A stretch of 64,000 nt of DNA, taken from the NCBI RefSeq assembly GCF_016889705.1, contig NZ_CP069526.1:4960001-5024000 (forward strand). Reading direction: 5' to 3'. Below the pieces are notes generated by a model, which saw nothing but the letters and a program-made list of their open reading frames with translations, did no database searches and was not told where the DNA came from. The stretch comes from Amycolatopsis sp. FDAARGOS 1241 (GTDB taxonomy: Bacteria; Actinomycetota; Actinomycetes; Mycobacteriales; Pseudonocardiaceae). Below are positions 22,582 to 33,400 of the stretch, piece by piece. Position 1 is the first letter of the stretch. Every line of letters starts with the position of its first letter. The translations under genes and the position numbers were made by a program.

Positions 22582-23592
22582 TCAGCGAGGATCGGCCGTG
22601 CGCAGCGAGTAGCGGCGCTCGGCGTAGGCGAGGTCGTCACGCCAGAGGCGCTCGGCTGTGCGGCGGATCAGCGGGCGCAGCGCACCGGCGGCCTTGCGCA
22701 CGACCGCGAACCCGGCCCGCTCGGACACCGCGACAACCGCCTCGATGACCGCCGTCCTCGCCCGCCCGTCCACACCGACGCCCAACGGGGTGGCGTGGGT
22801 CTCGACCACGCTGCCTACCCCCTCGCCGTCGACAATGCGCATCACCACGGTGCGAGGGCCGGGGCAGAAGAATTCGGCCACCACCGGCACTCCCCAGCGC
22901 CCCGCCAGCCGAAAGGTCACCTCGACGAGGAACCGGTCCTCGACGTCTGTGCCCAGGGGTGCTTCAAGCACCTTGAGCCGCGCGAACGAGTACGGGTGGA
23001 ACCAGGCGCCGTGCCAGGGATCAAGGCGGTTCGCGACGACGTCGGCGGGCTCGCACACGCCCGTCACGGTCGCCACTGCGTCCACGCTGCCGCTCTGCTG
23101 GGGTCGAGGCGGGACAGCGGGCCGCGCGGTGGGAGGTTCACCGCCAAGCTCATCCAGCCGTGTCCAGACCAGCACACCGTCGTCGAAAACCGGCACCGGC
23201 GACCAACCCGCCCGCGGCCCGCCGCCGACCCGTAGGCCGTGCCATCGGCAGACCAGCTCGTCGCAGTCGAGCCGGGCTTCGGCCAGCGGCGCGCCCAGGT
23301 GGGGGCATACGCCCGGTCCGGCCCGTACCTCGCCGCAGCGAGTCCGCCAGGCGACCAATTCCCGGCCGCCGATGCTCCGGCCGAAGGGCCGGTCCGGCCG
23401 GACCTGACGGCTTGCTGCCAGCACGTACCAGTTCCCGGACTGGCGGGCCTCCGCCCGTTTCACGGCGTCGGCGATCACAGCCGGGCTGCATTCGGCGAAG
23501 GTGGGAGGCTGCGCGGCCCACCGCGGCTCACCGAAAGGCCGGACCGGCCAGCCCGCCGGCCACCGCCGGTCGAGCCGCTGCCTGAACGTCAT
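22582..23592 (-). CDS. Rieske [2Fe-2S] protein of the carotenoid locus
   Basis: A 336-residue protein. A Rieske domain occupies about residues 40-130, with both ligand motifs intact: CPHLGAPLAE and, 15 residues on, CRWHGLRV. The rest (about 150-320) resembles the uncharacterised C-terminal domain that I recall as DUF5914, found with such Rieske modules beside actinobacterial aromatic-carotenoid genes. It is probably an oxygenase-like or electron-transfer partner in ring modification. AGGAG lies 8 bases before the ATG. It diverges from crtE across a 160-bp shared promoter region. Confidence 0.82.
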   Translation of the reverse strand: MTFRQRLDRRWPAGWPVRPFGEPRWAAQPPTFAECSPAVIADAVKRAEARQSGNWYVLAASRQVRPDRPFGRSIGGRELVAWRTRCGEVRAGPGVCPHLGAPLAEARLDCDELVCRWHGLRVGGGPRAGWSPVPVFDDGVLVWTRLDELGGEPPTARPAVPPRPQQSGSVDAVATVTGVCEPADVVANRLDPWHGAWFHPYSFARLKVLEAPLGTDVEDRFLVEVTFRLAGRWGVPVVAEFFCPGPRTVVMRIVDGEGVGSVVETHATPLGVGVDGRARTAVIEAVVAVSERAGFAVVRKAAGALRPLIRRTAERLWRDDLAYAERRYSLRTADPR

Positions 23593-23752: not shown

Positions 23753-24850
23753 ATGGCGACCAAGGCGGCGAGCGTCATCCCGGCACAGGCCGGCCCGCGC
23801 GATTGGCTGACCGTGCTCGGCGAGGAACTTTCCACCCACGTCGGTGAATTCGTGACCCGGCGCTGCGATGAGCAGTTCACCGGCCGGGGTGAAGGTGCGC
23901 TCGCCGTGACAGCCCTACCGGAGTTCGTCCGCGGCGGCAAGTTCCTGCGGTCGATGTTCGCCTACGTCGGCTGGTGCTGCAGCGCGCCGGAGAACGACGC
24001 CGCCGTGCGGGCGGTCGCCAGTCTCGAACTACTGCATTGCTTCGCCCTCGCGCAGGACGACGTCATGGACGCGTCGCAGCTGCGCCGAGGTCGGCCGGCC
24101 CTGCACACCCAGTTCGCCCGCTGGCACCGCGACCAAGGTTGGAGCGGCTCGCCGGCCCGGTTCGGCGAGGCCGCGGCGATACTGTCCGGCGACCTGTTCC
24201 TGGTCTGGTCCGAACAGATGCTGCGCGAAAGCGGGCTGCCCGCCGGAACGCTGTCGCGTGGGTGGCCGCTCTACGACGCCATGCGTGCGGAACTGGCCGC
24301 GGGGCAGCTCGCCGACCTGGTGAACGACGCCCGAACCGTGCCTGACTGGGAGTCGGTACTGGACGTGCTCCGCCGCAAGTCCGGCAACTACACCGTCCGC
24401 CGGCCGCTGGAGCTCGGCGCCACGCTGGCCGGCTGCGACACCCGGATTTCGCGGGCCCTCGGCGTTTACGGCGGACTCGTCGGCGAGGCGTTCCAGTTCC
24501 GCGACGACGTCCTGGGCATCTTCGGTGACCCGGACGTGACCGGCAAACCCGTGGGACAGGACCTGCGCGACAGGAAAGCCTCCAGTGTCGTTGCGCTCGC
24601 GGTCACCATGGCCGACACCACGCTGCGGCGAGAGCTCGAGCGCCTCCTGAGCCGCGACGCCATCGACGACGACACCGTAGCCGCACTGCGCGACGCCATC
24701 ATCGCGTCCGGTGCCCTGGATCAGCTGGAGAAGCTGATCGACAAGCAGGTGCGGAAAGCCCTGGACGTGATCGACAGCGCGGACGTGCCGGCCCGGATGG
24801 CCGAAACGCTCGCCGTGCTCGCCGCCCGCTGCACGGAGCGTGTCCGATGA
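23753..24850 (+). CDS. crtE: Geranylgeranyl diphosphate synthase
   Basis: A 365-residue trans-prenyltransferase, longer than the typical 300 mainly at the N-terminus. The first Asp-rich motif is ALAQDDVMDAS (DDxxD), preceded by GGKFLRSMF; the second is FQFRDDVLGIFGD. Small residues before the first motif fit a C20 product, but chain length is inferred. It condenses isopentenyl and allylic diphosphates to supply phytoene synthase. ATG 23753 follows AAGGGG; an ATG at 23738 is possible. It is the first gene of the crt operon and its end overlaps the crtI remnant by 4 bp. Confidence 0.92.
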   Translation: MATKAASVIPAQAGPRDWLTVLGEELSTHVGEFVTRRCDEQFTGRGEGALAVTALPEFVRGGKFLRSMFAYVGWCCSAPENDAAVRAVASLELLHCFALAQDDVMDASQLRRGRPALHTQFARWHRDQGWSGSPARFGEAAAILSGDLFLVWSEQMLRESGLPAGTLSRGWPLYDAMRAELAAGQLADLVNDARTVPDWESVLDVLRRKSGNYTVRRPLELGATLAGCDTRISRALGVYGGLVGEAFQFRDDVLGIFGDPDVTGKPVGQDLRDRKASSVVALAVTMADTTLRRELERLLSRDAIDDDTVAALRDAIIASGALDQLEKLIDKQVRKALDVIDSADVPARMAETLAVLAARCTERVR

Positions 24851-25896
24851 GGGCAGGACCGGGCAGGACCGACCGGGTTGCCGTCGTCGGCGCGGCCGGG
24901 TACTACCGGTTGCGGACGCGGCTCACGCGGCTCTCCCAGGCCCAGTTCGACCGCTTCGTCGCCTCGGACATCGACTCGCCGCTGAGCCTCGTCTCCCGCG
25001 ACCTGGCCCGGTTGGTCGCGCCCGGCGGGCCGCGCCACGTGTTCACCTTCCAGGCCCGCCACGCGGGCCAATCGCCGATTCGGGCGCCGGCTCTCTACGC
25101 CGTGATCTCCTCCATGGACATCGGCGGCTGCGTGTACTTCCCCGACGGTGGTAGTGCCGCCCGGCCCCGGGCCCTCGCCCCTGCCGCCGAGGTGCAGTTG
25201 CGTTATGGGGAACGGGCCGACTCGCTCGAACGGCGCGGCGCCCGCGAGTCGGCGATGCCGACGGGCTCGGAAGGCCGGCTCCCGTGCGACGCCGTCGTCC
25301 TCACCGGCGAGCTCCCCGAGGGCTGTCAGTTGCTCGGCCGAGCCCCGCGGCGACCAGTGCGGCTCTTCCCCTCGCCGTCCGCGCTCGTCGTTCACCTGGC
25401 CGCGGCCGGAGACTGGCCTGACGTCGGGCACCACATCATCTCGTTCGGCGACGCGGTCGACCGCCGGCCGCCCGGACGCCAGCCCGGTCGGAACCCCGGC
25501 GCCGGCGAGCACGCTGTCTTCCGCGCCTCGCGGGAGGTTGCGCGGGCGGACCGGTCCCGGTTGGCCGAACGAATGCCCTTAGCTGAAGGGCGTGCCCGCG
25601 ACCATGCGCGGCGCAGCCCACTTCGCAGGGCTGAGCACGTGCGAGGCCTCCGCGTCGGGCGCCGGCAGGAGTTGTTTGCGGAATACCTCGAGCAGCGCCG
25701 CCGCGCCGGGCTCGGCTTCGCCGCTCCGGTCGATCGCCCCGCGTTCGAGGTTCGGCGCCGGCGCGAGGATCGAGAACAGGTGCCGGTGCGCCGGGGCGAG
25801 GGCCGGGTCGCTGGTGGGAAGCCGGGTGAGGAGCAGCGACGGGTCGACCGCGTCACCGGGCCGGGGCCGCGCCACGCAGCGGTGGGTCCGCGATGA
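24847..25896 (+). pseudogene. crtI: Phytoene desaturase, deleted and internally inverted
   Basis: The plus frame starts TDRVAVVGA, where the Rossmann GxGxxG should begin, then jumps to AGYYRLRTRLTRL: about 100 residues of FAD domain are missing. It continues DSPLSLVSRDLARLV, VFTFQARHAG and DAVVLTGELPEG up to HHIISFGDAVD at about 25462. From there to 25841 the CrtI C-terminus is on the minus strand: PSLLLTRLPTSDPALAPAHR, ILAPAPNLERGA, AAPRMVAGTPFS, a TAA stop, then FRPRNLPRGAE-like sequence and VLAGAGVPTGLASG. Inverted repeats GACGCGGTCGACC (25450-25462 and complement 25842-25854) bound the flipped piece. The true ending VTGPGPRHAAVGPR returns on plus, its stop overlapping the crtB ATG. It cannot make active enzyme. 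Confidence 0.85.
25450..25854. repeat. 13-bp inverted repeats bounding the flipped crtI segment
   Basis: GACGCGGTCGACC occurs at 25450-25462, and its exact complement at 25842-25854, enclosing 379 bp. Reading through either copy after reversing the enclosed segment keeps the crtI frame. The core GGTCGACC is itself palindromic. These are the likely crossover points of the inversion. Confidence 0.8.
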
Positions 25897-26852
25897 CCCG
25901 CCGGGAACTCGACGCCGCCGGCATCCACGACCCGGCCTTACGCTCGGCCTACCAGCGATGCCGGACGGTCAACGCGCGCCACGGCCGCACCTACTTCCTC
26001 GCGACCCGATTGCTCTCACCGGCCCAGCGCCCGCCCGTCCACGCGCTCTACGGGTTCGCTCGGCGGCTGGACGACATCGTCGACAAGCCGGCCGGGGGAG
26101 CCACCCCCGCCACTATCACCGCGGAGCTCGACGCGGTGGAACGGGACTTCTTCTCGGCCCTCGCCGCCAGGCACAGCGACGATCCACTGCTCGCGTCCGT
26201 CATCGACACCTGCGCGAGGTACGAGATCGCGACCCGGCACTTCCGTGCGTTCTTCCGCTCGATGCGGATGGACCTCACCGTGACCGACTACCCGCGGCGC
26301 TCGGCGCTCGACGAGTACGTGCACGGCTCGGCGGAGGTGATCGGTCTGCAGGTGTTGCCCGTGCTCGGCACCGTCACGGGCCGCGACGAGGCGGCGCCCC
26401 ACGCGGCGGCGCTGGGCAAAGCGTTCCAATTGACGAATTTCCTGCGCGACGTCGCGGAGGACCTCGCCCGCAACCGCGTCTACCTCCCCGCCGACGAGCT
26501 CGCCGCCTTCGGTGTGGACCGCGACCGCCTGGGCTGGTGCGCCGACCGCGGCCTCGTGGACCGGCAGGTGCGGGCGGCTCTCGCAGCCCAGATCGCCGTC
26601 ACCCGGACGCTTTACGATCGGGCGCGGCCGGGGATCTGCATGCTGCACCCGGTGTCGCGGGCCTGCGTCGGCACCGCTTTCCAGCTCTACGCGGAGATCC
26701 TCGACCGCATCGAACGCGCCGGGTACAACGTCTTCGGCCACCGGGCGGTGGTGCCGCGCCGACGTCGGCTGCTGGTCGCGGCCGGCGCGCTCGGCCGGGC
26801 CCGGTGGCTGCAGCTGCGGAACCCGTCGCCGTTGCCGCCGGCGGGGGCGTGA
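25893..26852 (+). CDS. crtB: Phytoene synthase
   Basis: A 319-residue squalene/phytoene synthase-family enzyme that joins two geranylgeranyl diphosphates head to head into phytoene. Both Asp-rich diphosphate-binding motifs are intact: RRLDDIVDKP at about residue 53 and FLRDVAEDLARNRVYLP at about 185. The domain is complete and of normal length. The ATG overlaps the crtI stop (ATGA) and its own stop overlaps the crtYc GTG, so translation is coupled. The 5' coupling now depends on the disrupted crtI frame, which may lower its expression. Confidence 0.95.
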   Translation: MTRRELDAAGIHDPALRSAYQRCRTVNARHGRTYFLATRLLSPAQRPPVHALYGFARRLDDIVDKPAGGATPATITAELDAVERDFFSALAARHSDDPLLASVIDTCARYEIATRHFRAFFRSMRMDLTVTDYPRRSALDEYVHGSAEVIGLQVLPVLGTVTGRDEAAPHAAALGKAFQLTNFLRDVAEDLARNRVYLPADELAAFGVDRDRLGWCADRGLVDRQVRAALAAQIAVTRTLYDRARPGICMLHPVSRACVGTAFQLYAEILDRIERAGYNVFGHRAVVPRRRRLLVAAGALGRARWLQLRNPSPLPPAGA

Positions 26853-27196
26853 CCGTGGGCAAGCTGGAATACCTCGCCGTGCTCGGTGCCTGCGTCCTGA
26901 TCACGCTGCCGCTCGAACTGGCGGGAGCCAGGGTCTACCGGCGCCCGCGCCGGCTGGCGCGCGCCGTGGGGCCCGTGGCTCTCGTGTTCCTGGTGTGGGA
27001 CGCCGTCGCCATCGCGGGCGGGGTATGGGACTACGCGCCCCAGAGCCTCAGCGGGATCCGAGCACCGTTCGGCGTCCCGCTCGAAGAGGTCCTGTTCTTC
27101 GTCGTCATTCCGATCTGCGGCCTCCTGACCTACGAGGCAGTGGGCCTGACGCTCACGGCGGTGCGCCGTCTCGGCCGGCGGCGGGTGCGGCGGTGA
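26849..27196 (+). CDS. crtYc: Lycopene cyclase subunit
   Basis: A 115-residue protein of the small heterodimeric lycopene cyclase family with three membrane helices: LEYLAVLGACVLITLPLELA, ARAVGPVALVFLVWDAVAIA and LEEVLFFVVIPICGLLTYEA. The PLEEVLFF and WDYAP signatures are present. With its partner it cyclises lycopene ends to beta-rings in the membrane. The start is a GTG overlapping the crtB stop, and the stop overlaps the partner's GTG. Confidence 0.92.
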   Translation: MTVGKLEYLAVLGACVLITLPLELAGARVYRRPRRLARAVGPVALVFLVWDAVAIAGGVWDYAPQSLSGIRAPFGVPLEEVLFFVVIPICGLLTYEAVGLTLTAVRRLGRRRVRR

Positions 27197-27513
27197 TCCC
27201 CTGGGGTTACACCGTGCCCGCGGTCGCCTCGGTGCTGGCGGTGGTCGCACTGGAGCTGTGGGCCTTGCGGACCGGCCTGTTCCGCAAGCCCGGCTACTGG
27301 ATCACCATCGCCGTCGTGGCCGGATTCCAGATCCCCGTGGACGGGTGGCTGACCAAGACCTCACACGCGATTGTGCGCTACGCGCCCGAACACCTCTCCG
27401 GGCTCCGCTTCCCCTGGGACATCCCGATCGAGGACTTCCTCTTCGGGTACGCATTGGTGACGGCCGTTCTGCTCCTGTGGGAGCGGGCGGCGCAGAAGGA
27501 GGACACCGAGTGA
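27193..27513 (+). CDS. crtYd: Lycopene cyclase subunit
   Basis: A 106-residue partner of CrtYc with the same architecture: AVASVLAVVALELWALRTGL, WITIAVVAGFQIPVDGWLTK and PWDIPIEDFLFGYALVTAVL. The P-I-E-D-F-LFG signature is intact, as expected for the second half of the split cyclase. It starts at GTG overlapping crtYc and ends overlapping the next gene, with AAGGAGG inside its tail serving that gene. Confidence 0.92.
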   Translation: MIPWGYTVPAVASVLAVVALELWALRTGLFRKPGYWITIAVVAGFQIPVDGWLTKTSHAIVRYAPEHLSGLRFPWDIPIEDFLFGYALVTAVLLLWERAAQKEDTE

Positions 27514-28247
27514 GCCCGCTCGCCGAAGACGGCCTGCCCCGAGCGCAGGTGCCGGCGGCGTTCGACACCGAAGCCGCCTCCTACGACCGGCTCGTCGGCG
27601 CGAACCCCGGCTACCACGACCACCTCCGGCTTTCCGCCCGGCGCCTCGGCCTGACCGGGGGCGGCGCGGGCTTGCAAGTGCTCGACGCCGGGTGCGGCAC
27701 CGGCGCGTCCACCGCAGCCCTGCTAGAGGTGCTGCCGGACGCCGAAATCACCGCATTCGACGGGTCGGCGGCGATGCTGGCGTGGGCACGGCGCAAGGAC
27801 TGGCCCCCGAACGTGCGATTCGTGCACAGCACGATCGAAAGCCTGGGACGCTCGGGAATCACGGGTCCGTTCGACGCGGTACTCGCTGCCTACCTGATCC
27901 GCAACCTCGCCGACCCGGACACCCAGTTGCGCGCCTTGCGCGCGCTGCTTCGTCCCGGTGCGCCGATCGCCGTCCACGACTATTCCGTCGCCGACTCGCG
28001 GCGGGCCAGGTTCATCTGGAACTGCGTGTGCGCCGCGATCATCATCCCTTGGGGCAAGGTCACCACCGGAGACGCGACGCTCTACCGGCACCTGCGGCGC
28101 AGCGTGTTGCGGTTCGAGGGCACCGGCGCACTGACCACCCGCATCGCCGCTGCCGGGTTCACCGCCACCCGCTGCGCGACCATGCCCGGCTGGCAGCGCG
28201 GGATCGTGCACACCGTCGTCGGCGTCCGGCCCGGGGAGACCCCGTGA
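27510..28247 (+). CDS. SAM-dependent methyltransferase of the carotenoid operon (CrtT-like)
   Basis: A 245-residue class I methyltransferase. Motif I is LQVLDAGCGTGAS, followed by an acidic ligand in ITAFDGSAAML and FDAVLAAYLIRNLADPD as motif II/III. It resembles UbiE-type enzymes, and by position between the cyclase and CrtU it corresponds to CrtT of Streptomyces isorenieratene clusters. Its precise role there is unclear, so I infer only a carotenoid or quinone methylation. Start GTG 27510 overlaps crtYd, with AAGGAGG 9 bases upstream; the stop overlaps the crtU start. Confidence 0.85.
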   Translation: MSPLAEDGLPRAQVPAAFDTEAASYDRLVGANPGYHDHLRLSARRLGLTGGGAGLQVLDAGCGTGASTAALLEVLPDAEITAFDGSAAMLAWARRKDWPPNVRFVHSTIESLGRSGITGPFDAVLAAYLIRNLADPDTQLRALRALLRPGAPIAVHDYSVADSRRARFIWNCVCAAIIIPWGKVTTGDATLYRHLRRSVLRFEGTGALTTRIAAAGFTATRCATMPGWQRGIVHTVVGVRPGETP

Positions 28248-29785
28248 CCGCGCCCGTCGGCCGTGATCGCCGGCTCGTGGTCCACCCGGCTCCGGGTGGG
28301 CTCGACTCCGCCGGCAGGCTCGGCCGGCGCCCCCGCGTCGCTGTCGTCGGTGCCGGCATCGCAGGCCTCACCGCGGCGACCGGACTGGCCGAACGCGGGG
28401 TCGAGGTGACGCTCTACGAGCGCGAAGACCACCTCGGCGGCCGCGCCGGCGGCTGGCCCGCCCGGCTCCCCGACGGCACCGCCGTCACGATGAGCCGGGG
28501 TTTTCACGCCTTCTTCCGGCAGTACTACAACCTGCGCGCGCTGCTGACCCGCACGGACCCCCGGCTCGAACGGCTCACCCCACTTGAGGACTACCCGCTG
28601 CTCGACGCCTGCGGCCGCACCGATACCTTCGGCGGACTCCCCGCCTCTCCCCCGTGGAACGCGCTCGCGTTCGCCTTGCGCAGCCCCACTTTCCGGCTCC
28701 GGAACCTGCTCGCCCTCGACGGCCGCGCCGCGCTGCCCCTGGCGACCGTCGACGTGCCCGGCATCTACGAGCGGCTCGACCACGTCGGCGCCGCCGCCTT
28801 CCTCGAGCGCATCAATTTCCCGCACGCGGCACGGCACCTGGCGTTCGAAGTGTTCTCGCGAAGCTTCTTCGCCGACCCGCGCGAATTGTCCGCGGCGGAA
28901 CTCGCCGTGATGTTCCACCTGTACTTCCTGGGATCGAACGAAGGCCTGCTCTTCGACGTGCCGACCGAGCCATTCCCCCAAGCGCTGTGGTCGCCCTTGG
29001 CCGAATACCTGACCGCCCGAGGCGTGAGGATCAACCTCCTGACGGACGTCGAGAACGTCGCCAAGTCCCGTGGCACCTTCCGCGTCACCGCAGGGGTGGA
29101 AGAGGACTTCGACGCCGTCGTGCTGGCGTGCGAGGTAGGCGGGCTGCAGTTGCTGGTCGAGGCGTCGCCTGGCCTCGGTACCGACGCCTGGCGGGCGCGG
29201 ATCGCGGGGCTCCGAAGGGCGCCCGGTTTCCTCGTCCGCCGGCTGTGGCTCGACCGTGCGTTGGCTGCGACACGGCCACCGTTCCTAGGCACGGGCGGCA
29301 CCCCACCGGTGGACAACATCAGCGTCCTCGACCGCTACGAAAGCGAAGCACGCTTCTGGGCGAGAAAAACCGGCGGCTCAGTGGTCGAAGTGCACGCCTA
29401 CGCCGCCACCACGACCGATGTCGACGCCCTGTCGAGACAGATGGACGAACAGCTCCGCGAGATCTACCCGGAAACCGCCACCGCTCGTGCGGTCGGCGAG
29501 ATCACGCTCTGGCGGGAGGACTGTCCGCTGTTCGGGATCGGCAGCTTCGCGAACCGTCCCACCGTCACCACGACCACCCCAGGACTGGTGCTGGCCGGCG
29601 ACGGCATCCGGATCGATCTGCCGGTCGCCTTGATGGAACGGGCTGCGGCCACCGGCTGGGCCGCCGCGAACTCACTGCTGACGAGCTGGGGCATCGCGGG
29701 ACACCCGCTCCACTCCGTCCCCAACCGCGGGCGGCTCGCGCTGCTCAACCACCTCGTCCCCTGGCTGGAACGCGGATCGCGATGA
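28244..29785 (+). CDS. crtU: Isorenieratene synthase-like FAD oxidoreductase
   Basis: A 513-residue flavoprotein of the CrtU desaturase/methyltransferase group. The intact Rossmann motif VAVVGAGIAGLTAATGLAE lies at about 30-50, then REDHLGGRAGGWPARLPDG and MSRGFHAFFRQYYNLRALL, characteristic of CrtU. The C-terminal FAD-binding segment GLVLAGDGIRIDLPVALMER is complete. It converts beta-rings to aromatic phi-rings, making isorenieratene from beta-carotene. It ends the operon. Because crtI is broken, this is the only intact amine-oxidase-type flavoprotein in the cluster. Confidence 0.9.
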   Translation: MTAPVGRDRRLVVHPAPGGLDSAGRLGRRPRVAVVGAGIAGLTAATGLAERGVEVTLYEREDHLGGRAGGWPARLPDGTAVTMSRGFHAFFRQYYNLRALLTRTDPRLERLTPLEDYPLLDACGRTDTFGGLPASPPWNALAFALRSPTFRLRNLLALDGRAALPLATVDVPGIYERLDHVGAAAFLERINFPHAARHLAFEVFSRSFFADPRELSAAELAVMFHLYFLGSNEGLLFDVPTEPFPQALWSPLAEYLTARGVRINLLTDVENVAKSRGTFRVTAGVEEDFDAVVLACEVGGLQLLVEASPGLGTDAWRARIAGLRRAPGFLVRRLWLDRALAATRPPFLGTGGTPPVDNISVLDRYESEARFWARKTGGSVVEVHAYAATTTDVDALSRQMDEQLREIYPETATARAVGEITLWREDCPLFGIGSFANRPTVTTTTPGLVLAGDGIRIDLPVALMERAAATGWAAANSLLTSWGIAGHPLHSVPNRGRLALLNHLVPWLERGSR

Positions 29786-30787: not shown

Positions 30788-31159
30788 TTAGCTGCTCAGG
30801 CGCGCTTGCCGGAGGCAGAATACATTGCCTTCGGGGTCGGCCAGGACGTGCCAGGGCTCCTCTCCGGTCTGGCCGAAGTCGGCCGGGCGCGCCCCGAGCT
30901 TCAGGAGGCGTTCGAGTTCGGCGTCCTGATCGCGGTCCGTGGAGTTGACGTCGAAGCTCAGCCGCTGCCCCGCCTCGGACTCGACAGCGGGGCTGAACAC
31001 CAGAGTCGGCTGCAATCCTCCGAACCCTTCCCGCGGCCCGATCTCCACCGCACCTTCGTCGGTGTCGAGCACGCTGAACCCCAGCACCTCGCACCAGAAC
31101 GCCGCCAGCCGTTGCGGATCCAGGCACTTCACTCTCAACTCAGAAATGCGACAAGCCAT
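30788..31159 (-). CDS. VOC-fold protein (glyoxalase-like)
   Basis: A 123-residue single-module VOC protein: ELRVKCLDPQRLAAFWCEVL, then VDIGP-like EIGPREGFGGLQPTLVFSP, and HVLADPEGNVFCLRQA as the closing strand with Glu. Such proteins are often resistance or isomerase proteins; metal ligands here are incomplete (no clear first His), so catalysis is uncertain. The start ATG abuts the resolvase remnant on the opposite strand and has only a weak AGGG, so its original promoter may have been replaced. Confidence 0.72.
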   Translation of the reverse strand: MACRISELRVKCLDPQRLAAFWCEVLGFSVLDTDEGAVEIGPREGFGGLQPTLVFSPAVESEAGQRLSFDVNSTDRDQDAELERLLKLGARPADFGQTGEEPWHVLADPEGNVFCLRQARLSS

Positions 31160-31498
31160 GATCGACACCCTACGGGCCTTCGACCGCAGGCAGCTCGTCG
31201 TGGCCAAGCTCGACCGGCTCAGCCGGTCACTGGAGCACCTGCTCGAGCTGTCCAGACAGCTACACGCGAAGGCGTGGACCTGCTGGTGCTCGACCAGGGC
31301 ATCGACACCTCCACCGCGGCCGGACGGATGTTCTTCCAGATCGTGGGCTCGAACGCCGCGTTCGAACAGGCCCTGAGGTCCGAACGCGCCGTCGACAGCC
31401 TGGCCGAGGCTCGCGCGCGGGCGCACTGGTGGGCAGAAGCCGAAGCTCGGGGCTCGCCAGGTGCAGCCGGCCAGGCACAGGTACGAGGAGTGCGGTGA
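31157..31498 (+). pseudogene. Serine resolvase/invertase remnant, copy 2
   Basis: The first frame gives DRRQLVVAKLDRLSRSLEHL and LELSRQLHAK. After a frameshift near 31258 the next gives EGVDLLVLDQGIDTSTAAGR, MFFQIVGSNAAFEQALRSER and AVDSLAEARARA. The N-terminal active-site serine region and the helix-turn-helix are lacking. It is closely related to the relic at 12 kb but preserves a different portion, so the two are separate decayed copies. Confidence 0.75.
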
Positions 31499-32795: not shown

Positions 32796-33400
32796 ATGCG
32801 ACTGGGGATGGACGACGATGGAGGAAGCGACAGAGCGCGGGGGCAGGACTCCGGCGGCGGGGAGCCGCGCCGCGCGCCCGGTCGCCGGCGGCCGACCGGC
32901 AAGCGCGAGCGGCGGCTCCGAAGCGCCCGCGGGGTCACCATCCCGGCCGGTAAGCACGAGCGGCGGCTCCGAAAGGCCCGCGGCGTCACCATCCCGGCCC
33001 GCAAACACGAGCGACGGCTCCGAAAGGCCCGCGGGGTCACCATCCCGCCCGGCTCGATCGACCTGGCCGCCGAGATTCCGCGATTGCGTATGCGTGCGTT
33101 GCGCATGCTGGCCGTGGCGGCTCTGCTTGTCGCCCTGGTCGTGGCCACCGAAGTCACCCTCGGCGTGCTCCTGCAGCGTTCCGAGGACCTGCTGAAGACG
33201 GGGAGGCAGGCCGAAGGCGTGGTGGTCACTTTCTTCGACGCCGACCGCGGCCACTCGTCGACGTCGGTGGACTATTGGGTTGGCAGCGAGGTGCGCCGGG
33301 CGCGTGTCGTCGTCGACAGCGGTCGTGACTACGCGCCGGGCGAGCCGGTGACGGTGTTCTACGACCCTGCCGATCCCGCGCGCGGGCCGCGGCAGACGAG
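32796..33400 (+). pseudogene. DUF3592-like membrane protein, 3' end replaced by IS3
   Basis: The protein opens with a Gly/Arg-rich head and three 17-residue basic repeats (residues about 36-86), then one membrane helix (LRMLAVAALLVALVVATEVT) and an extracytoplasmic-type beta domain: GRQAEGVVVTFFDADRGHSS, VDYWVGSEVRRARVVVDSG, YAPGEPVTVFYDPADPARG, as in DUF3592 proteins. At about 33400 the sequence switches to the IS3 transposase. The frame runs on for some 58 foreign codons to 33575. Normal DUF3592 proteins have a second helix after this domain, which is missing. The start may be 32796 or 32808. Confidence 0.6.
32901..33053 (+). repeat. Three tandem 51-bp repeats inside a gene
   Basis: Units at 32901-32951, 32952-33002 and 33003-33053 are about 90 percent identical and encode the basic peptide ERRLR-ARGVTIP with Lys/His-Glu leads. 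The period is a multiple of three, so copy number can change without shifting the frame. Confidence 0.85.

Follow-up and report, generated by a model that had tools for sequence, protein, structure and literature searches.

Decay of an Amycolatopsis crtI gene with an inverted internal segment, and an inverted repeat that is more likely a by-product of the inversion than its substrate

Introduction

Intragenic invertons, reportedly described by Chanin et al. in 2024, are said to be segments within genes that lie between short inverted repeats and flip reversibly. Inversions with short inverted repeats at their edges have also been attributed to DNA synthesis that changes its template. According to PMC7954356, which presents a four-point template-switch model, perfect inverted repeats are often generated by template switching. 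PMC8755829 deals with microinversions of 17-33 nt between human and chimpanzee, which are mostly cleanly copied; it describes a double switch but considers this process doubtful where the repeats are very short, and favours break-induced replication. Loss of crtI from a carotenoid pathway has been described in actinobacteria as well. PMC9241763 gives crtI pseudogenes for Mycobacterium shottsii and M. ulcerans, and names a premature stop there as at least part of the reason for the lack of pigment.

The locus presented here lies in a window of 64 kb (the whole stretch of DNA that was analysed), which is part of the 9.8-Mb genome of an Amycolatopsis, a soil bacterium, assembled in 2 contigs and listed as 100% complete. 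Its crtI gene shares with CrtI-type phytoene desaturases (TIGR02734) the middle, the C-terminal part and the place between crtE and crtB, but it differs from them in that its FAD region is deleted, its C-terminal part lies on the opposite strand, it carries a stop and its substitutions are neutral. The window gene is like the mycobacterial pseudogenes in the loss of crtI from an actinobacterial carotenoid pathway, but it carries an inversion and deletions, and its genome has an intact second crtI. Its segment edges abut short inverted repeats, as do those of the microinversions and of the template-switch model. Compared with the microinversions of PMC8755829, the segment is 379 nt long, bacterial and accompanied by a 48-nt loss at one edge. 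An intragenic segment between short repeats is also what the locus has in common with intragenic invertons, and nothing was found in the window gene that indicates reversibility. No title or abstract reporting this crtI inversion was found among the matches listed in literature searches on crtI decay, coupled pseudogenes, template switching and invertons.

Structure of the crtI locus

The carotenoid operon has the order crtE-crtI-crtB-lycopene cyclase-methyltransferase-crtU, and the flipped segment sits in crtI (Table 1). In the profile search, crtE matches polyprenyl synthase families, each under its cut-off; the CrtU name of the last desaturase is one that we take from gene order. The stop of crtE shares an ATGA at 24847 with the start of crtI, the stop of crtI overlaps the start of crtB in an ATGA at 25893-25896, 2 bases separate crtB from the first cyclase gene, and GTGA overlaps follow at 27193, 27510 and 28244.

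Table 1 Features of the crtI locus and its surroundings, in window coordinates
Feature	Position	Strand	Basis or remark
crtE, polyprenyl (geranylgeranyl) diphosphate synthase, 365 aa, intact	23753..24850	+	frame open
crtI relic, 349-codon open frame	24847..25896	+	profile matches, codon alignment
Junction, 330-nt in-frame deletion removing FAD-binding region	24891..24892	+	after residue 15
Junction, 48-nt in-frame deletion	25029..25030	+	alignment to relatives
Junction, 9-nt in-frame deletion	25191..25192	+	alignment to relatives
Left copy, 13-bp inverted repeat GACGCGGTCGACC	25450..25462	+	perfect match
Inverted segment, CrtI C-terminal part, model positions about 346-492	25463..25841	-	profile match, relatives
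Junction, 18-nt in-frame deletion inside inverted segment	25497..25498	-	alignment to relatives
TAA in original CrtI frame	25579..25581 (read 25581-25579)	-	TTA (Leu) in present plus-strand frame
Right copy, 13-bp inverted repeat, complement	25842..25854	-	perfect match
crtB, phytoene synthase-like, 319 aa, intact	25893..26852	+	top family 15-cis-phytoene synthase, under equivalog cut-off
Lycopene cyclase domain subunit 1	26855..27196	+	TIGR03462, over cut-off
Lycopene cyclase domain subunit 2	27193..27513	+	TIGR03462, over cut-off
Methyltransferase, UbiE-like	27510..28247	+	scores under cut-offs
CrtU-like FAD-dependent desaturase, open	28244..29785	+	top family HpnE, under cut-off
Serine recombinase fragment, frameshifted	31152..31426	+	PF00239 positions 53-144 of 145, two frames

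The crtI frame begins with a stub of the CrtI N-terminus and the CrtI middle, continues as the antisense of the C-terminal part and closes with the genuine CrtI tail. Plus strand 24997-25455 aligns with positions 165-330 of TIGR02734 (crtI_fam), and the tail beyond the inverted segment is again on the plus strand and reaches the ATGA overlap with crtB. The C-terminal part aligns from the minus strand: 25848-25438 matches positions 346-492 of the model and contains one TAA. Both the placing of the CrtI middle and the true C-terminal end on the plus strand and that of 25463-25841 on the minus strand between 13-bp repeats, as given in a preliminary description of this DNA, are thus borne out, and the flipped segment aligns with the C-terminal part of CrtI, as had been proposed there. 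As it stands, the 349-codon frame has no Pfam match at E 0.001. Against the complete family it scores 86.8 bits (cut-off 238.1) over model positions 165-330 alone, the FAD region being deleted.

The 379-bp segment inside crtI is flanked by a perfect 13-bp inverted repeat, which is 17 nt long if one mismatch is allowed. Among 2000 random 1050-nt sequences drawn from the dinucleotide frequencies of the window, a perfect inverted repeat of at least 13 nt with arms 50-500 nt apart was present in 1.85%. At such a chance rate the repeat by itself is weak evidence for an inversion, and it is homology that decides.

The inversion is one of several lesions. Codon alignment with the three nearest genomes (G010, G068 and G066) reveals that the plus part has lost 110, 16 and 3 codons and the flipped part 6; a gap of 69 codons listed for the flipped part is a slip of the alignment at the first residues and is left out of the count. 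The 48, 9 and 18 nt deletions are visible directly in the nucleotide alignment, and the 330-nt loss is derived from the number of codons before the AAGY motif, which is 125 in the relatives and 15 in the window. The in-frame loss of 330 nt and the TAA confirm the earlier view that a stop and an absent FAD domain reflect more than one event. TTA codons, such as the one that the TAA forms in the present frame, are rare in actinomycetes and often regulatory.

Comparison with relatives

The orientation of the two crtI parts relative to crtB was recorded in 109 relative loci, 80 of which came from a crtB search and 29 from a genus search using the window sequence. Both parts lie on the crtB strand in 102 loci, seven are incomplete (one or both parts not found within 3.5 kb), and none is inverted. 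When loci with identical crtB are merged, the counts become 91 on the same strand, 7 missing and 0 inverted. The first 19 relatives among the matches listed in the crtB search, which may omit the own genome, are all Amycolatopsis and 67-73% identical; further Amycolatopsis, Nocardia and mycobacteria appear among the lower matches. The genus searches took in 80 genomes, the own genome included. When the window sequence is used as a query, G010, G068 and G066 match its left part on one strand and its right part on the opposite one at 70-81% identity; on these alignments, such strand-split matches are what the native gene order is expected to give. By the profile match and this comparison, the inversion in the window crtI is real, the original observation is correct, and the inversion is found in this genome alone among the relatives examined. 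None of the 109 loci has an intermediate form, and such a form would hardly be expected with one genome per species.

At the window's locus in 29 relatives, crtI is open over at least 492 codons in frame into crtB in 28. The exception is G010, the nearest of the relatives compared, whose crtI is open for 298 codons because a single nucleotide is missing from a run of C (L090, about 2030). The database protein P0002 from Amycolatopsis sp. NPDC023774, the best match in the database, is intact and 97-98% identical to the two G010 frames, so that the missing nucleotide may reflect a recent change or an error of sequencing. In another genome of the genus, the sole crtI listed at E 1e-30 (G060:C1:1191168-1192624) is split into two overlapping matches, to model positions 1-367 and 364-496, which suggests a frameshift.

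Neutral drift of crtI and a second carotenoid set

Substitutions on the window branch were counted with G010, G068 and G066 as outgroups by a parsimony that skips sites where the outgroups disagree, and the counts are small. The plus part of crtI has N40:S17 and an omega of about 0.92, with 16, 21 and 20 changes at the three codon positions. Read in its original frame, the flipped part has N29:S11 and an omega of about 1.04, with 15, 12 and 13 changes. This part sits in exact antisense register, so that reversing the position order gives the counts for the present frame, which are flat too. These values show no purifying selection on the crtI protein, whereas the omega values of the six other operon genes range from 0.12 to 0.43 on the same branch (crtE 0.39, crtB 0.26, the cyclase subunits 0.41 and 0.12, the methyltransferase 0.21 and crtU 0.43).

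On the branch common to the window and G010, changes in the plus part are biased to the third position (6, 0 and 11), indicating that crtI was probably used then; those in the flipped part (1, 3 and 4) are too few to judge. The window gene was thus probably still in use on the branch shared with G010 and has been drifting for most of the time since. A loss of crtI before the split from G010 is unsupported in the plus part, which kept its third-position bias. On its own branch, the crtI of G010 has an omega of 0.63 in the plus part, where the changes are spread evenly over the codon positions (5, 7 and 6), and 0.18 in the counterpart of the flipped segment. The losses in the window and in G010 may share an earlier cause, but the intact P0002 speaks against it. 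Relaxed constraint on the window crtE and crtB has at most weak support: their omega values are above those on the G010 branch (0.09 and 0.08), but not clearly above those on the G068 branch (0.42 and 0.21).

The genome has a second crtI (C1:6815725-6817188), which scores 465 bits against the cut-off of 238 and has a window-branch omega of 0.16. The lone TGA counted in its match is the C-terminal end of the gene, and the frame is otherwise open. It is followed by a crtB that is 54% identical to the window crtB, and a crtE-like frame was recognized by eye ahead of it. G010, G068 and G066 each have a second crtI copy, that of G010 being intact, and 77 of the 80 genus genomes, the own genome included, have a crtI match over the cut-off. 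Because the second crtI is intact and constrained, loss of the window crtI is tolerable. The second crtE-crtI-crtB set can, we infer, compensate for it, and a duplicated carotenoid set lets one crtI decay within an operon of otherwise constrained genes. The window crtI is mostly a case of ordinary, if well-preserved, gene decay.

Origin of the inversion

In each of the 29 relatives, the two site regions share an inverted match of no more than 5-7 nt, and in the window the longest is 13 nt. In G010, G068 and G066, the left site has 16 codons between the FGDA motif (FGDR in G066) and the (D/G)PSLL motif. When the left site of the window is read on the minus strand, GTC alone stands in place of the 16 codons and 48 nt are missing. 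The two sites are 460 apart in G010 and 397 apart in the window, and the difference of 63 equals the 18-nt deletion plus 45; distances for L091 and L092, which begin at a chance upstream match, were set aside. The short matches in all relatives, together with the reduction of 16 codons to one, make the 13-bp repeat likelier to be a by-product than a substrate. A repeat-mediated inversion is conservative and explains neither the 48-nt loss nor the GTC, unless there was a separate earlier deletion. The preliminary description had put forward a single inversion at the 13-bp repeats; its inversion and its decay by several lesions stand, but its use of the repeats as substrate is unsupported, in view of the 5-7 nt in the relatives and the lost 48 nt.

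In G068, the sequence of the left site is GGCGACGC and the complement of the right site is GGTGACGC, which suggests that a GACGC microhomology may well have been present at both sites before the flip. Short junction microhomology (GACGC) and a newly made inverted repeat, the marks of an inversion by template switching or microhomology, are both found here. From these comparisons it is more likely that the 13-bp repeat is a by-product of one non-reciprocal, microhomology-guided event and not its substrate. In such an event, the last bases of a nascent strand, or of a broken end, at the left site would be ...GACGC(G). This end would continue at the right site on the opposite strand, where the same bases occur in complement. 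The segment would then be copied backwards to the DPSLL codons, followed by a return to the right site. As a result, 48 nt would be skipped at the left, and the bases around GGTCGACC would be written twice, giving rise to the 13-bp inverted repeat. Such a single event would need no untemplated bases. End joining of two breaks with fill-in would be expected to leave a similar mark, and two Ku matches indicate that end joining is available. The event may have been a double template switch, break-induced replication or end joining. We regard it as likely that the window crtI is a pseudogene that has decayed since the split from G010, that its loss was tolerable owing to the second set and that its segment was flipped in one non-reciprocal event.

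Alternative explanations

A different order of events would also account for the present arrangement: a 48-nt deletion at the left site may have created the 13-bp repeat by chance, with inversion between the repeats as a later step. This comes close to the proposal of the preliminary description and leaves the decay of the gene as it is. One or two base changes would turn the codons that relatives have there into GTC, the residue that precedes the D or G of the PSLL motif is S, G or T depending on the relative, and the four other deletions show that deletions are frequent in this crtI. However, such a history demands one more event and a coincidental 13-nt match of a kind present in so few of the random sequences, so we judge it rather unlikely. 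Moreover, the 13-mer is not special in the genome: GACGCGGTCGACC has 11 occurrences, both arms included, compared with 10 for the reversed control. This lack of enrichment also disposes of GACGCGGTCGACC as a recombinase site, which bears on the possibility that the segment is a reversible intragenic inverton flipped by a recombinase to turn CrtI on and off. A perfect 13-bp inverted repeat around 379 bp within a gene is what an inverton would have, and homology to a serine recombinase lies 5.3 kb away. This homology, downstream of the inversion, is a fragment without the first 52 domain positions, and it was rejected as the flipping enzyme because its PF00239 match is broken into two frames; a tyrosine recombinase (PF00589) has no match in the window, and recombinase matches exist elsewhere in the genome. 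The gene itself also argues against a switch. The opposite orientation would still be without the FAD region and with the TAA, the segment has an 18-nt deletion, substitutions are neutral in both readings, and none of the 109 relative loci is inverted. Compared with G010, G068 and G066 the exchange was not conservative, with 48 nt lost and GTC gained, although a separate deletion could explain this. Reversibility of the crtI flip is thus unlikely, and an on/off switch of CrtI is a very improbable account of the locus. The inversion is known from one genome, as would be the case if the segment had been placed in the wrong orientation during assembly. A misjoin is not expected to delete 48 nt at one edge, the remainder of crtI is broken and drifting too, and the genome has 2 contigs and is listed as 100% complete, which leaves an assembly artefact with hardly any likelihood.

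The open frame runs from the ATGA of crtE to the ATGA of crtB and could be that of a new functional protein of 349 aa. The changes are flat over codon positions in the plus part and in either frame of the flipped part, as would not be expected of such a protein. An open frame is not a sign of function here: the antisense register is free of stops in 41 of 47 segments from relatives (48 loci tried, duplicates of some genomes included), whereas both other registers contain stops in all 47, and a neutrally changing sequence would stay free of new stops with a probability of 0.51 in the plus part and 0.54 in the flipped part. Among the best 48 of at least 7994 candidate database proteins, one is the window's own frame, and the other 47 listed cover 36-58% of the frame (the best one 49%), that is, at most the plus part. 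A new chimeric protein is therefore extremely unlikely. More weight, if still not much, belongs to the view that crtI, though dead, persists as a translated linker, its frame being selected for the translation of crtB through the ATGA overlap. All four simple deletions (330, 48, 9 and 18 nt) are multiples of three, the tail is still in frame after the inversion, whose net effect on the distance is 45 nt, and amino acids drift freely while crtB is constrained. The ribosome-binding match of crtB is weaker in the window, at -7.2 kcal/mol, than in three relatives, at -10.2 to -12.0 kcal/mol, as computed with an assumed 16S end. Had the TAA arisen before the flip, the inversion would even have taken it out of the reading frame in use. 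On the other hand, four of four deletions in frame amounts to 1 in 81 by arithmetic, in one gene and post hoc, the absence of stops adds little at the chances given above, and the frameshift in the same gene of G010 is a counter-example unless it is a sequencing error. Selection of the frame for crtB translation is thus doubtful. The variant in which an untranslated stretch would stop transcription, hence the open frame, is equally doubtful. If true, selection on the frame only would make the action of translational coupling visible in a dead gene.

For the preferred reading, that of a decayed crtI flipped in one event, the relatives let the inverted repeat at a bacterial inversion be read as a likely product and not the cause. 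Caution is thus advisable where scans of single genomes take short inverted repeats as the sign of an inverton.

Surroundings of the operon

A Rieske [2Fe-2S] protein with DUF5914 is encoded divergently from crtE (window 22582-23520, minus strand), and a frame resembling it was seen by eye beside crtE in G010. Downstream of crtU in G010, a transposase-like ORF was noticed by eye (L159, 13809-14942, minus strand). In the window, 32818-33195 contains tandem repeats within a reading frame, with units like SGGSERPAGSPSRP, also identified by eye.
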